64,000 bases of DNA from Brevirhabdus pacifica (GCF_002797755.1 NZ_PGFI01000014.1:62001-126000), one strand, 5' to 3'. Positions 12,988 through 36,321 are shown, counted from the first letter of the stretch. Numbers and translations: made by a program. Notes: generated by a model from the letters alone, not told the origin.

Positions 12988-13872
12988 ATGTCTATCACAA
13001 GCTTGGAAGAGGTTTTGAAGATCCTCCGCGAGGACTTTGACGACATCCTGCAACAGTGGCTGGAAACCCAGCGCGAAGAAGGAATTCGTCGACCCGATCT
13101 TTTCTCGGACAGCGAAAGCTACCGGCAGGCCAAGAACCTCCTGACCGCCTTCGCCTCTGGCATGACCTCAGCTTCCCAGGAAGGGCGTCCCAATCTGGAC
13201 GATCCCAGCTGGGCGGACCTGCGCGCCGTGCTGGAAGAGATCACCCATGAGCGTGTCGAGCGCGGCGTTTCCGCCGGCGAGATGGCGACCTTCGTGCTGG
13301 CGCTCAAGACGCCGCTTTTCATGCGCCTGCGCAACAATCTCAAGGACAGCCCCGATGCGCTGGTCAGCGAGATCAGCCGTCTGTCGCGCATGATCGACGC
13401 CTTTGCCATGCGCACCAACGAGGTGTTCATCGAGGAGCGCGAGCAGATCATCCAGCGCCAGCGCGACGAGATGATGGAGCTTTCGACCCCCGTCGTGCAG
13501 CTGTGGGAGCGTATCCTGACGATCCCGCTGATCGGCACGCTGGATTCGGTCCGCGCCCAGGAGGTGATGGAAAACCTGCTGAACTCGATCGTCGAGCACC
13601 GCGCCGAGGTCGTGATCGTGGACATCACCGGCGTTCGCGTGGTCGACACGCAGGTCGCGCAACACCTGCTGCGCACTGCCGCCGCCGTCCGCCTGATGGG
13701 CGCCGAGTCGATCATCAGCGGCATCAGCCCCAAGATCGCCCAGACCATGGTCGAGCTGGGCGTCGACGTGGGCGAGATCACCACCCGTCCCACCATCCGC
13801 GCCGCCCTGGCGCTGGCGATGAACCGCGTTGGCTTCGAGATCCGGGCCAACAAGGAAAGCGCCCGTGACTGA
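12988..13872 (+). CDS. rsbR: RsbR-like stressosome protein (RsbRD_N + STAS)
   Basis: The 294-residue protein has an N-terminal helical sensor domain (about 1-155) of RsbRD_N type (VLKILREDFDDILQQWLE, then a helical segment with EREQIIQRQRDEMMELSTPV). A C-terminal STAS domain follows (about 165-290). Thr167 in ELSTPV and Thr221 in VRVVDTQV match the positions phosphorylated by RsbT in Bacillus RsbR proteins. In the known system RsbR and RsbS form a large particle that holds RsbT until stress. ATG 12988 was chosen; a TTG nine codons upstream has no ribosome site. It overlaps rsbS by eight bases. Confidence 0.9.
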   Translation: MSITSLEEVLKILREDFDDILQQWLETQREEGIRRPDLFSDSESYRQAKNLLTAFASGMTSASQEGRPNLDDPSWADLRAVLEEITHERVERGVSAGEMATFVLALKTPLFMRLRNNLKDSPDALVSEISRLSRMIDAFAMRTNEVFIEEREQIIQRQRDEMMELSTPVVQLWERILTIPLIGTLDSVRAQEVMENLLNSIVEHRAEVVIVDITGVRVVDTQVAQHLLRTAAAVRLMGAESIISGISPKIAQTMVELGVDVGEITTRPTIRAALALAMNRVGFEIRANKESARD

Positions 13873-14227
13873 CGCCGCCTCCATCTATCACGTCGAGAAC
13901 GTGTTGTTGGTGGCGATCCGCGATAACATCACGGATACCGACATCATCACCCTGCAGGAAGAGCTGTCCCACAGGATCGTCTCGGACGGCGCGCGCGGGG
14001 TGGTGATCGACATCTCGGCTCTCGAGATCGTCGACACTTTCGTCGGTCGCATCCTTGCCCAGCTGTCGTCGATCGCGCGGCTGCTGGCGGCCGAGACCTA
14101 CATCGTCGGCATGCGCCCGGCCGTGGCAATGACCCTGGTCGAGCTTGGCATGGACCTGTCGGGCAGCCGCACGGCGCTCAGCCTGTCCCACGCCCTGCGC
14201 AGCTTGAGGGCCAGCAGGCTGGCATGA
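13865..14227 (+). CDS. rsbS: RsbS-like STAS protein
   Basis: The 120-residue product is a single STAS domain with VVIDISALEIVDTFVGR (residues 46-62) and VGMRPAVAMTLVELGMDL, a close family match to RsbS. In Bacillus RsbS the phosphorylated residue is Ser59 in VVDS; here the equivalent position is Thr58. The gene starts with GTG, overlaps rsbR by eight bases and ends in an ATGA overlap with rsbT, so the three are co-translated. Confidence 0.92.
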   Translation: MTDAASIYHVENVLLVAIRDNITDTDIITLQEELSHRIVSDGARGVVIDISALEIVDTFVGRILAQLSSIARLLAAETYIVGMRPAVAMTLVELGMDLSGSRTALSLSHALRSLRASRLA

Positions 14228-14631
14228 TCGGGGCGGATGCGTGTCCTGTCCTGACCGTTCCCCTGAGGGACGAGCGTGACATCGCGGCCGCCCGGTCGGC
14301 CGTGTCACGCGAACTGGACAAGCGGGGCGCCCGCGCCCTGCGCAAGGTGCGTTTCGTCACCGCCGTCAGCGAGATCGTCCGCAATGCGGTCGATCACGGC
14401 GGCGGTGGCGAGATGTCCGTCTTCGTCAAGGAGCGCCCGCTCGAGATCTGGGTCCGCTGCACCGATACCGGGCCGGGGATCGCGGATATCGACGAGGCAT
14501 TGCAGGACGGGTTCTCGACCGCCCGGAGTATGGGCAAGGGGCTGGGCGGCGCGAAGCGGCTGGTGGACTCGTTCGAAATCACAAGCCGCGTCGGCGGCGG
14601 AACCACCGTGGAGATATCAGCCGCCCTATGA
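14224..14631 (+). CDS. rsbT: RsbT-like serine/threonine kinase
   Basis: The 135-residue protein is a GHKL/HATPase of the RsbT/RsbW group. The N box is SEIVRNAVDHGG (Asn54), the G1 box is DTGPGI (81-86), and the G2 region is GKGLGGAKRLVD (104-115). RsbT phosphorylates the STAS proteins RsbR and RsbS and then leaves the stressosome to activate a downstream partner. Both ends show ATGA overlaps with neighbours. Confidence 0.93.
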   Translation: MIGADACPVLTVPLRDERDIAAARSAVSRELDKRGARALRKVRFVTAVSEIVRNAVDHGGGGEMSVFVKERPLEIWVRCTDTGPGIADIDEALQDGFSTARSMGKGLGGAKRLVDSFEITSRVGGGTTVEISAAL

Positions 14632-15665
14632 AGCAGTCCGTAGAGATCTCAGAAAGAAGCGGCGTCGCGGAAGCACGCCGCATGGCACAGAGATATGCCT
14701 CGGACCTTTCCCTCGGCGCCGAGCGCGAGGATCGTCTGGCCATCGTCGTGACCGAAATGGCGACCAACCTGCTGCGCCATGCCGCCGGCGGCCGGATCCT
14801 GCTTCAGGAAATCCCCGTTCAGCGCGCGGGCGCCGCGGCTGAGGGCGCGCGCCGGTTGATGGTTGCGGCGGTCGACACGGGCCCCGGCATTCCCGACATC
14901 GGCCGCGCGCTTCAGGACGGCTATTCCACCCTTGCACCCGGCATCGGCGGGTCGGGCGGCGTCGGTCTTGGGGCCATGCAGCGGCTGGCCGACACGTTCG
15001 ACATTCATTCCGAACCGGGCGGGGGCACGGTCGTCTGCTGTTCCTTCGGGGCCGCCAACCCACAGCTTGCGGGCGTGGACCTTGCGGGGTTCCGCATGAA
15101 CTACCCCGGCGAGATCGAGTGTGGCGACAACTGGACGGCGCGGGTCCGCGACGGGGTGGTCGAGATCCTGGTCATCGACGGGCTGGGCCACGGCCCCCGC
15201 GCGGCCGCCGCCGCCGAGGAGACGCTGAAGGCGTTTGCCCTGCGTCGCGACAAGGACCTTGTCACACTGATGGAGAACCTGTCGGAAGACGTGCGCGCCA
15301 CCCGCGGCAGCGTGGCCGGGCTGCTGCAGATCGAGGCCGCGAACAACCGGGCCTATTACGGCGGGATCGGCAACATCACCGCGATGGTGGCGGCGCCGGG
15401 CAGCGCGACACGACGGCTTATCTCGCGCGACGGGCGGCTGGGCGGTCCGGCCCGAAGTCTTCAGACCGAGGAACTGGACCTGCGCCCGGGCGATACGCTG
15501 ATCCTGCACTCCGATGGTATAGCGACCCTGCGCGGGATTGACCGGATGACCGGGTTGCTGCGACATTCGCCGGGGTTGATCGCGGCGTCCCTCATGCGCG
15601 ACCATAACCGGGGCCGCGACGACGCCTGTGTCGTTGTCGCCCGGATCGCGCGGCCGGAGGTGTAA
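14628..15665 (+). CDS. fused RsbT-like ATPase and PP2C-type (SpoIIE/RsbX-like) phosphatase
   Basis: The 345-residue product joins two modules. Residues 1-140 form a GHKL ATPase domain (TEMATNLLRHAAGG, VDTGPGIPDI, GVGLGAMQRLADTFD). Residues 155-345 form a PP2C domain with metal-binding aspartates in ECGDNW, VIDGLGHG, LHSDGI and GRDDACVVV. In known stressosomes RsbX resets RsbR and RsbS by dephosphorylation and RsbT phosphorylates them; this protein has both folds in one chain. It overlaps rsbT by ATGA and ends two bases before the kinase gene. Whether the ATPase half acts as a kinase or only binds a partner is unknown. Confidence 0.92.
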   Translation: MKQSVEISERSGVAEARRMAQRYASDLSLGAEREDRLAIVVTEMATNLLRHAAGGRILLQEIPVQRAGAAAEGARRLMVAAVDTGPGIPDIGRALQDGYSTLAPGIGGSGGVGLGAMQRLADTFDIHSEPGGGTVVCCSFGAANPQLAGVDLAGFRMNYPGEIECGDNWTARVRDGVVEILVIDGLGHGPRAAAAAEETLKAFALRRDKDLVTLMENLSEDVRATRGSVAGLLQIEAANNRAYYGGIGNITAMVAAPGSATRRLISRDGRLGGPARSLQTEELDLRPGDTLILHSDGIATLRGIDRMTGLLRHSPGLIAASLMRDHNRGRDDACVVVARIARPEV

Positions 15666-15667
15666 CC

Positions 15668-16891
15668 ATGCGGATCGCGACGCTTCGGATAACCGACGAC
15701 AAGGACATCGTCCGCCTGCGGCAGGTGGGACAGTCCGTTGCCAAGGCCCTGGGCTTCGAGACATTCGCACAAACCCGGATCGTCACCGCGCTGATGGAAC
15801 TTGCGCGCAACACGTTGCAGCACGGGGGCGGGGGTCAGATGATCCTGTCTCTCGCAGGGCGCAACGGCCTCGTCACGCTGATGGTGCAGGCCGTGGACCA
15901 GGGCCCGGGGATCAAGGACCTCAAGACCTTGCTGCACGGAGAAGGGGCGATTGCCAGCGCCGGGCCCGGCCTGGGGCTTGGCCTGCGCGGCGTGCACCGC
16001 ATCGCCGATGTCTTCGACGCCGAGACCGGCCCCGCCGGCACCCGGATCGAGGTCGGCTTCCTGACCGCGCTCGCCGCCGCCAAGCTGAGCGAGGCCGCCC
16101 GCCGGGTTACCGACGACGTCGTCAGCCTGGAACGCGCGGATCCGGCCGCCATGCTGGCCCAGCAGAACCGCGAGCTGATGCAGGCCCTGGCCGAGCGGGA
16201 CCTGATGATGGCCGAGATCCATCACCGCACCCGCAACAACCTGGCGCTGGTCAACGGGCTGATCCGCCTCAGCCGCGCCTCGGCCCAGTCCTCGGAAACG
16301 CGCGAGGCGCTGGCCGACCTGGAGAACCGCATCCACGCGATCATGAAGGTTCACGAACAGCTGCAACGGCGCGACGCCGGCGACACGCTGGAGGTGCTGC
16401 CGCTTCTGCGCGACGTGTCGGACCACGCGACGGCGGCCTTCAGCATGCCCGGCCGCACGGTGCGGGTCAGCGTGGACGGCGACGCCGCCGTGCTCAGCAG
16501 CTCGGCCGCGATCGACGTGGCGCTGGTGGTGGGCGAACTGATCACCAACGCCCTGAAACATGCCTTCAGCGGCCGCGAGTCCGGGCGCATCACCATCGAG
16601 GTTTCAGCCCGCGACACGGGCCTCAAGCTGATCGTGGCCGACGATGGCCACGGCCTGCCCGACGGCATGGAAAAGCCCGAACGCTCGGCCTCGCTGGGCT
16701 GGCGGATGATCCGCTCCACCACCCAGAAATACGGCGGCACCATCGACGTCCGCTCGGAAAGCGGGCTGGTGGTCGAGCTGGTTCTGAACTCGATCAATCC
16801 GGTCGAGGAAGGCGCCTCGGACGGGTCCGAGGGCGGGGTGGGCGCCGGTTCCGGAGCAGGTGCCGGGGCAGGGGCCGGGGCTGGCCGCTGA
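15668..16891 (+). CDS. RsbT-like ATPase fused to HisKA_2-type histidine kinase
   Basis: The 407-residue soluble protein has two GHKL domains. Residues 1-135 resemble RsbT (MELARNTLQHGGGG, DQGPGI, GLGLGLRGVHRIADVFD). Residues 175-380 form a histidine kinase of the HisKA_2/HWE type, with phosphoacceptor motif EIHHRTRNN (His186), N box GELITNALKHAF and DDGHGLP. The tail (391-407) is a Gly-Ala repeat. HisKA_2 kinases commonly phosphorylate PhyR-type regulators of the alphaproteobacterial general stress response. There is no transmembrane or PAS sensor, so the N-terminal ATPase half is probably the input from the stressosome. No response regulator gene is adjacent. Confidence 0.9.
   Translation: MRIATLRITDDKDIVRLRQVGQSVAKALGFETFAQTRIVTALMELARNTLQHGGGGQMILSLAGRNGLVTLMVQAVDQGPGIKDLKTLLHGEGAIASAGPGLGLGLRGVHRIADVFDAETGPAGTRIEVGFLTALAAAKLSEAARRVTDDVVSLERADPAAMLAQQNRELMQALAERDLMMAEIHHRTRNNLALVNGLIRLSRASAQSSETREALADLENRIHAIMKVHEQLQRRDAGDTLEVLPLLRDVSDHATAAFSMPGRTVRVSVDGDAAVLSSSAAIDVALVVGELITNALKHAFSGRESGRITIEVSARDTGLKLIVADDGHGLPDGMEKPERSASLGWRMIRSTTQKYGGTIDVRSESGLVVELVLNSINPVEEGASDGSEGGVGAGSGAGAGAGAGAGR
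16838..16888 (+). repeat. Gly-Ala codon repeat at the kinase 3' end
   Basis: A degenerate 6-bp repeat (GCN-GGN) encodes the low-complexity tail VGAGSGAGAGAGAGAGR. It is in frame, and slippage there would change tail length or frame only after the kinase domain. Confidence 0.8.
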
Positions 16892-33920: not shown

Positions 33921-33946
33921 AACGTCGGATGTGACGGCCATGTTCC
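33921..33946 (-). promoter_or_regulatory. EcfG-type promoter of the PRC-barrel gene
   Basis: Read on the minus strand: GGAAC-N17-CGTT, an exact match to the EcfG (general stress sigma) consensus. The predicted leader before the PRC-barrel gene is about 50 bases. Confidence 0.78.
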
Positions 33947-34145
33947 TGAAATTGTATAATAATTTAATGGAACCAAAGCGGGTCGCGAGGCGTTCAACAC
34001 GAATCCCCCGGCGCACGGGCGACCATTGTCGCAGGCCCGGGGATGCCCCCGACAAACCACGTCTGTCAGCGCCCCAAGCCGCCGGAATCAGGGGTCTTTC
34101 CTTGACGATTGCGACGCCGCTCGCGCGTCTGGGCGGCCCTGATCG

Positions 34146-36083: not shown

Positions 36084-36117
36084 CCCTTTTCCGACTTTTT
36101 CCGCCTGAGGAACAGCC

Positions 36118-36321
36118 ATGAAGATCTATCGTTTCCTGTCCGAAGAGGACACGTCCGCCTTCTGCCACAAGGTCAGCGAGGCCCTGTCGAAAGGGTGGGA
36201 GCTTTACGGCTCGCCGACCCAGACCTTTGACGCCGCCGCCGGCATCATGCGTTGCGGACAGGCCGTGACCAAGGAGATCGAGGGCAGCTATCATCCCGAC
36301 ATGAAGCTGGGCCAGCAGTGA
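36118..36321 (+). CDS. DUF1737 small protein
   Basis: The 67-residue product has the DUF1737 pattern KIYRFLSEEDTSAFCHKVSE, with GWELYGSPTQTF and MRCGQAVTKEI. No function is established. A TGAGGAA ribosome site precedes it and its stop overlaps the mch start by one base (TGATG), so it is co-translated with mch. Confidence 0.88.
   Translation: MKIYRFLSEEDTSAFCHKVSEALSKGWELYGSPTQTFDAAAGIMRCGQAVTKEIEGSYHPDMKLGQQ

Follow-up and report, generated by a model that had tools for sequence, protein, structure and literature searches.

A conserved five-gene stressosome module ending in a histidine kinase with an RsbT-like half, its probable output

Introduction

In the SigB stressosome of Bacillus and Listeria (RsbRST-UVW-SigB-X), RsbR, RsbS, RsbT, their phospho-sites and an RsbX-type phosphatase come together with RsbU, RsbV, RsbW and SigB. 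Stressosome modules with two-component outputs are already known as well, and Ruegeria is named among their carriers in PMC9237108 (after Pane-Farre 2005). The modules of Vibrio vulnificus (rsbRSTX-D1-D2), Ruegeria and others have in common the R-S-T-X order, the lack of a SigB cascade and a signalling kinase encoded next, and a phosphorelay was proposed as their output (PMC9237108). That survey found no connector to the stressosome for most of the downstream kinases; it describes no RsbT-like domain on them, and transient phosphorylation by RsbT was proposed instead. In V. vulnificus, whose system has no RsbT-like fusion as described, no binding of RsbT to the downstream two-component protein was found (PMC9237108). 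A histidine kinase is also tied to a partner-switch stress pathway in the RsbK-RsbY branch of B. cereus, where a hybrid kinase signals to SigB; but this branch has no stressosome, and the target of its kinase is a PP2C phosphatase with a receiver (PMC3999984). Finally, HWE/HisKA_2 kinases serve the PhyR-NepR-EcfG pathway. In Sphingomonas melonis most of them converge on PhyR and SdrG (PMC5964349), and in R. sphaeroides the role of PhyR is narrow and specialised (PMC5830050).

The operon analysed here lies in a window of 64 kb (the whole stretch of DNA under study), which belongs to a 3.4-Mb alphaproteobacterial genome whose close matches are Rhodobacterales, e.g. Limimaricola and Pseudoroseicyclus. 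With the Bacillus and Listeria systems it shares RsbR, RsbS, RsbT, an RsbX-type phosphatase and the phospho-sites, but it contains no gene for RsbU, RsbV, RsbW or SigB, has a kinase instead, and thus does not constitute a SigB partner-switch cascade. In the RSTX modules just named RsbR is of the globin type and RsbX has a single domain, and the outputs in Vibrio are classical kinase or c-di-GMP ones, whereas here RsbR carries an RsbRD_N sensor, the phosphatase (X) is an ATPase-PP2C fusion and the kinase (K) joins an RsbT-like ATPase to a HisKA_2 core. That core, with its predicted EL346-like fold, is what K has in common with the kinases of the PhyR-NepR-EcfG pathway; unlike them, K has neither a PAS/LOV nor a membrane sensor and is not linked to phyR. 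In the open-access literature we found no paper that links a stressosome to PhyR, nor one that describes an RsbT-like fusion as connector (RsbU_N or nothing is described), although the fusion may have been noticed before in subscription papers, e.g. Pane-Farre 2005 and 2017.

Results

Five packed genes, each present as an open reading frame, occupy positions 12988-16891 of the window on the + strand. Read from their ORFs and Pfam domains, they are as follows:

12988-13872, + strand: rsbR, ATG start, 294 aa; RsbRD_N sensor (PF14361, E 1.2e-19) and STAS domain (PF01740, E 1.3e-15)
13865-14227, + strand: rsbS, GTG start, 120 aa; single STAS domain (PF01740)
14224-14631, + strand: rsbT, 135 aa; GHKL serine/threonine kinase, HATPase_c_2 (PF13581/PF02518)
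14628-15665, + strand: X, 345 aa; RsbT-like ATPase (PF13581, E 8.2e-15) fused to a SpoIIE/PP2C phosphatase (PF07228, E 1.7e-13)
15668-16891, + strand: K, 407 aa; HATPase_c_2, HisKA_2 and HATPase_c domains
16822-16888, + strand: Gly/Ala-rich C-terminal tail of K, predicted to be disordered (from residue 381 on, pLDDT is roughly 50 or lower)

An overlap of 8 bases joins rsbR to rsbS, an ATGA joins both rsbS to rsbT and rsbT to X, and a gap of 2 bases separates X from K, so that the five-gene operon and the junctions given in the preliminary description are confirmed. Its remark that there is no sigma factor also holds: no sigma factor gene was found within or adjoining the operon, and a profile search that was positive with the B. 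subtilis control detected no RsbU_N in the genome. The neighbours are unrelated by their Pfam domains (an opposite-strand methyltransferase, an S49 peptidase and a Na/Ca exchanger) and, save for the exchanger in one locus, are not common to the other loci.

The first three genes provide the RsbRST set of a stressosome, that is a sensor-STAS RsbR, a separate STAS protein RsbS and a GHKL kinase RsbT in one operon. Residues 12-281 of RsbR align to solved RsbR chains, and this alignment makes S187 and T221 the equivalents of T171 and T205 of B. subtilis; the former position is Ser or Thr and the latter Thr in 94 of 94 loci. RsbS, whose best solved match is the Moorella RsbS 2vy9 (E 4.4e-25), has T58 at the place of the known phospho-site S58/S59, a position held by Ser or Thr in all 95 loci. 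Every phospho-acceptor position known from Bacillus, Listeria and Moorella is therefore occupied here by a phosphorylatable residue. In RsbT, the motif residues E50, N54 and D81xG83xG85 are conserved wherever aligned (96 loci).

The PP2C half of X is nearer to RsbX than to RsbU. Its best solved match is the Moorella RsbX-type PP2C 3zt9, followed by B. subtilis RsbX 3w40, and there is no RsbU among its solved-chain matches, which are RsbX-type chains only. The metal-site residues D167, D184, D331 and D332 are invariant in our alignment of X (A1), as are the GHKL residues of the N-terminal RsbT-like ATPase, the domain by which X departs from a single-domain RsbX.

K consists of an RsbT-like ATPase (residues 1-136), a coiled linker with the motif QNREL (166-170), a HisKA_2 DHp domain with H186 and a HATPase_c domain. 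The ATP site of the N-terminal half is complete (E44, R47, N48, D77xG79xG81, G103/G105 and GT124-125), and the same residues are kept even where the kinase core of K is of the HisKA type. The assignment to HisKA_2 comes from a DHp with His-Arg-x-x-Asn-Asn followed by HATPase_c, at 58.1 bits for PF07568 (cut-off 22.3), whereas by profile it bears only a weak resemblance to PhyK (88.5 bits, with the cut-off at 750). H186 is invariant among 25 HisKA_2-type K proteins, which agrees with its earlier designation as the phosphoacceptor position.

An AlphaFold model of K, built with a 25-sequence alignment, has a mean pLDDT of 84.9 and a pTM of only 0.49, so that the relative placement of its domains is unreliable. 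The model predicts an ATPase lobe (1-136), a helix (137-156), a continuous helix (159-205) that spans both the QNREL linker and H186, a second DHp helix and the catalytic domain. Compared with VIA-align 2, the predicted lobe matches SpoIIAB 1l0o (Z 16.0, rmsd 2.5, 131 residues aligned) as well as 1til and 1th8, which are complexes of SpoIIAB with the STAS protein SpoIIAA; since GHKL ATPases have a common fold, Z alone is no demonstration of STAS binding by K. Residues 174-378 of the model match the LOV histidine kinase EL346, 4r3a (Z 19.5, rmsd 4.9, 194 aligned). Others have docked RsbT onto RsbR and RsbS with the SpoIIAB-SpoIIAA complex as template, obtaining contacts with both STAS proteins, and named Glu45 as potential catalytic base (PMC9237128). 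By motif, this residue corresponds to E50 of our RsbT and E44 of K.

How far the module extends was examined at two scales. Among 395 genomes of the family, RsbS was matched in 12, nine of which have the complete five-gene order; in the remaining three the R-S-T module lacks this X and K. The module is found on Phaeobacter plasmids, including those of P. inhibens DSM 17395, and in Salipiger, and it recurs with a related K in Sphingomonas, Deinococcus (D. radiodurans MP1 among them) and Paraburkholderia. At the larger scale, 84,980 species genomes were scanned with the X alignment and the best 80 loci were examined, a set ranked by X and not a random sample. These come from Pseudomonadota, Planctomycetota, Acidobacteriota, Myxococcota, Rokuibacteriota, Armatimonadota and others. 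In 70 of the 80, a K with an RsbT-like N-half starts right at the end of X; of the other ten, several are truncated where a contig stops, and in others the kinase lacks the N-half. The same order across phyla, with the catalytic and phospho-sites kept while the neighbours change, is not due to chance: the module is widespread and conserved, not a one-off.

Within the best 80 loci the kinase core of K varies. It is HisKA_2 in 23, all of them alphaproteobacteria, and HisKA in 46, with several H-box types, and the RsbT-like N-half and a QNxELL-type linker persist across these differing cores. In 41 of the 46 HisKA-type cases a receiver lies within K and/or the next gene encodes a receiver-kinase hybrid. 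No receiver in cis accompanies any of the 23 HisKA_2-type K proteins, and theirs must therefore be encoded elsewhere.

In a careful tree, the ATPase domains of RsbT, X and K separate as distinct paralogues, with X as one clade (100/100) and the RsbT proteins of the operons as another (97/92). A branch whose support is modest (74/92) has all K N-halves to one side of it, for which a single ancient RsbT-like fusion, with the core exchanged later, is the simplest reading of the sequences, though an unproven one. An exchange of roles between RsbT and K in Rhodobacterales, which a FastTree of the ATPase domains had suggested, is absent from the careful tree and was dropped; a tree that forces rhodobacteral K together with RsbT is neither favoured nor firmly rejected (p-AU 0.06).

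The genome of the window has a canonical phyR locus, with divergent nepR, a sigma factor gene and a HisKA_2 kinase, unlinked to the operon. A direct linkage exists elsewhere: five genomes of Skermanella, among them S. stibiiresistens and S. aerolata, show the order phyR-rsbR-rsbS-rsbT-X-K with a HisKA_2 core, phyR being 15-16 bp from rsbR, and the encoded protein passes the NCBI model for PhyR (310 bits against 240). It is not the only one of its kind, as we had supposed, since S. stibiiresistens has two further PhyR-like proteins. PhyR is present in all tested genomes with a HisKA_2-type K, including that of Parvularcula oceani, which had seemed to have neither PhyR nor NepR until a divergent PhyR was found there. 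As most alphaproteobacteria have PhyR, this co-occurrence alone is weak evidence.

In a quick tree of kinase cores, the K of the window falls in one clade with every rhodobacteral, Oricola and Parvularcula K protein (support 100), and 15 phyR-adjacent kinases form a separate clade (100) that does not include it. The clade with the window's K is weakly nearer to other HisKA_2 kinases, among them the genome's own short PAS/LOV-like kinase. The Skermanella core lies elsewhere, weakly with a larger clade that contains the phyR-adjacent kinases (90), and looks like a separate acquisition. A place in the phyR-adjacent clade is not required of every PhyR kinase. Upstream of the operon, no EcfG box was found in 29 loci, while the phyR/nepR intergenic region used as control has one per strand; control of the operon by EcfG was accordingly set aside. 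Just upstream of rsbR, two Salipiger genomes encode a single-domain receiver, with 69% identity between the two copies, but it has no close orthologue in the window's genome and is unlinked to the operon in relatives, so that an adjoining receiver was not retained as a general partner.

Discussion

We consider it probable that the operon encodes a complete stressosome module with K as its dedicated output kinase, that K is docked through its RsbT-like half, and that it acts on a receiver encoded elsewhere, for which the most plausible candidates are PhyR and a single-domain regulator that feeds into PhyR. The starting points are the gene order, the domains, the conserved sites, the predicted fold, the recurrence of the module, the exchange of cores and the phyR linkage in Skermanella; from these we infer docking, release, direction of effect and receiver. 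In such a scheme, RsbR and RsbS would build the STAS particle, and under stress RsbT, perhaps aided by the ATPase half of K, would phosphorylate T58 of RsbS and S187 and T221 of RsbR. K would be a second client beside RsbT, held on the same STAS proteins by its own RsbT-like ATPase, and phosphorylation of RsbS and RsbR would change, turn or free the docked domain. The change could then travel along the continuous helix, from the QNREL linker to the DHp helix with H186, and alter the kinase, so that the phosphoryl flow from K to the unlinked receiver would change, by activation or by inhibition. X would be the phosphatase that resets the system. Most likely, then, K converts the phosphorylation switch of RsbT and X into a phosphorelay. 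That the kinase is the output through its RsbT-like half, as the preliminary description proposed, is well supported by anatomy and synteny: the position of K after X, the GHKL motifs, the distinct paralogues and the match of the N-half to SpoIIAB, a kinase for which a complex with a STAS protein is known. The single origin of all K N-halves is not firm, which counts against the model, as does the negative RsbT binding result in V. vulnificus (PMC9237108).

Other readings of the same data differ in where the signal leaves the particle. The freed RsbT might bind the ATPase half of K as a heterodimer, like RsbT with RsbU in Bacillus, without K ever being held on the particle. SpoIIAB-type ATPases form dimers, and the fold match of the K N-half would suit such a pairing, as would the role of RsbT as released messenger in Bacillus and Listeria (PMC9237108). 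However, the N-half of K is homologous to RsbT and not to RsbU_N, and a complete ATP site with a catalytic Glu (E44) would be needless for a mere receptor of RsbT; we regard this possibility as unlikely. A good deal less probable still is an output through X, acting like RsbU on an unlinked RsbV-type protein and leaving K as a second input kinase of the particle. X does have an RsbT-like ATPase of its own, and RbaVWY-type partner switches exist in Rhodobacterales (PMC3999984), but its matches to RsbX structures, which led us to set aside X as output, the separate clade of its ATPase half and the lack of RsbU_N in the genome all speak against this, and what stands next to X in most of the best loci is K and not an rsbV/rsbW pair. 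As to chance clustering or a cassette decayed beyond function, decayed copies do exist (L061), and the spread within the family is patchy, with all five genes in nine of 395 genomes; yet the conservation of all catalytic and phospho-sites, and of the order across phyla amid changing neighbours, already refutes this explanation, to which we give next to no credence.

The identity of the receiver is a separate matter. K may well be the output and still signal to another single-domain or DNA-binding response regulator, a reading to which we would give somewhat less than an even chance. The core of K outside the phyR-adjacent kinases and the missing EcfG box, both of which weigh against PhyR in our main model, would be in line with it, as would the Salipiger receivers and the specialised role of PhyR in R. 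sphaeroides (PMC5830050). On the other side, the Salipiger receiver has no close orthologue here, and the regulator linked in Skermanella is PhyR. The connection to PhyR drawn in the preliminary description thus stands in part: it gains from the phyR-first row of Skermanella, the confinement of HisKA_2 cores to alphaproteobacteria, the presence of PhyR in all tested genomes and the lack of a receiver in cis, and loses from the phyR of this genome, which is unlinked and lies beside its own kinase, and from the two points just named. The same description suggested looking for the five-gene order in other genomes and asking whether it tracks with PhyR. The order does recur, in the family and in many phyla, but it does not track with PhyR in general, since most family genomes sampled are without the operon and it is present in beta- and planctomycete genomes that have no clear PhyR. 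HisKA_2 cores captured twice independently, and only in the presence of PhyR, would fit a PhyR/SdrG network as target; in the lineage of the window, another regulator could just as well be the receiver. Judged from the sequences, PhyR is a plausible receiver of the window's K.

For stressosomes that have neither RsbU nor SigB, the RsbT-like domain of the kinase, kept across phyla amid changing cores, is a concrete candidate for the connector that passes the signal on. The phyR-first row of Skermanella makes a link between stressosome and PhyR directly testable, and since plasmids of P. inhibens, those of strain DSM 17395 included, carry the operon, a cultured host is available. Our boldest proposal, which we put forward tentatively, is that the stressosome and PhyR-NepR-EcfG, two general-stress architectures regarded as separate, may be linked through a kinase one half of which is RsbT-like: K would be held directly by the particle, and its release or modification would drive phosphorylation of PhyR. 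The RsbT-like half would then be a plug for exchangeable engines, of which HisKA_2 cores would have been captured at least twice in alphaproteobacteria.

Conserved residues, receivers and EcfG-box-like sites

At the RsbR position matching Thr171 of B. subtilis (13546-13548 in the window), 93 of the 94 modules carry a serine, and in these same modules the position equivalent to Thr205 is always a threonine. For the kinase core of K, the kinase whose N-terminal half is an RsbT-like ATPase, the closest paralogue in the window's own genome is a short PAS/LOV-like HisKA_2 kinase. Two Salipiger species have, upstream of rsbR, a single-domain response regulator, 69% identical between the two, which is possibly a local partner of K. 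Skermanella stibiiresistens has two PhyR-like sigma-receiver proteins beyond the one in its stressosome row.

Kinase paralogue and receiver proteins (coordinates within each locus)
L163:1733-2752, PAS/LOV-like HisKA_2 kinase, 339 aa, window's own genome
L056:3454-3822 and L088:4532-4909, single-domain response regulators, Salipiger
L219:718-1551 and L220:835-1641, additional PhyR-like proteins, Skermanella stibiiresistens

Three EcfG-box-like sites (GGAAC-N16/18-CGTT) are found in the window, at 33921-33994 and 36109-36133, two of them near each other on opposite strands; since 1.18 such sites are expected, the three observed constitute a weak signal only.

Variant, decayed and archaeal modules

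Stressosome modules are also present in archaea, on a Halanaeroarchaeum plasmid and in a metagenome-assembled genome (MAG) of the methanogen Methanoregula.

Archaeal modules
L158:2839-8336, Halanaeroarchaeum plasmid: PAS protein, RsbS, RsbT, PP2C, then a PAS-domain protein
L116, Methanoregula MAG: rsbR-rsbS-rsbT-X, X being bimodular

On plasmid pBN1 of Paraburkholderia aromaticivorans (L061, 5236-8651) the module copy is decayed, its kinase frame being split into two ORFs and its upstream part being incomplete. A variant in genome G517 (L194, 4491-7152), which has receivers upstream of it, comprises rsbR, rsbS, two genes for RsbT-like ATPases and one for a single-domain PP2C. Finally, in a Schlesneria MAG (L100:6861-8816) a single ORF joins X to a HisKA kinase without the RsbT-like domain of K, and this fusion is an alternative route by which the module is linked to a kinase.
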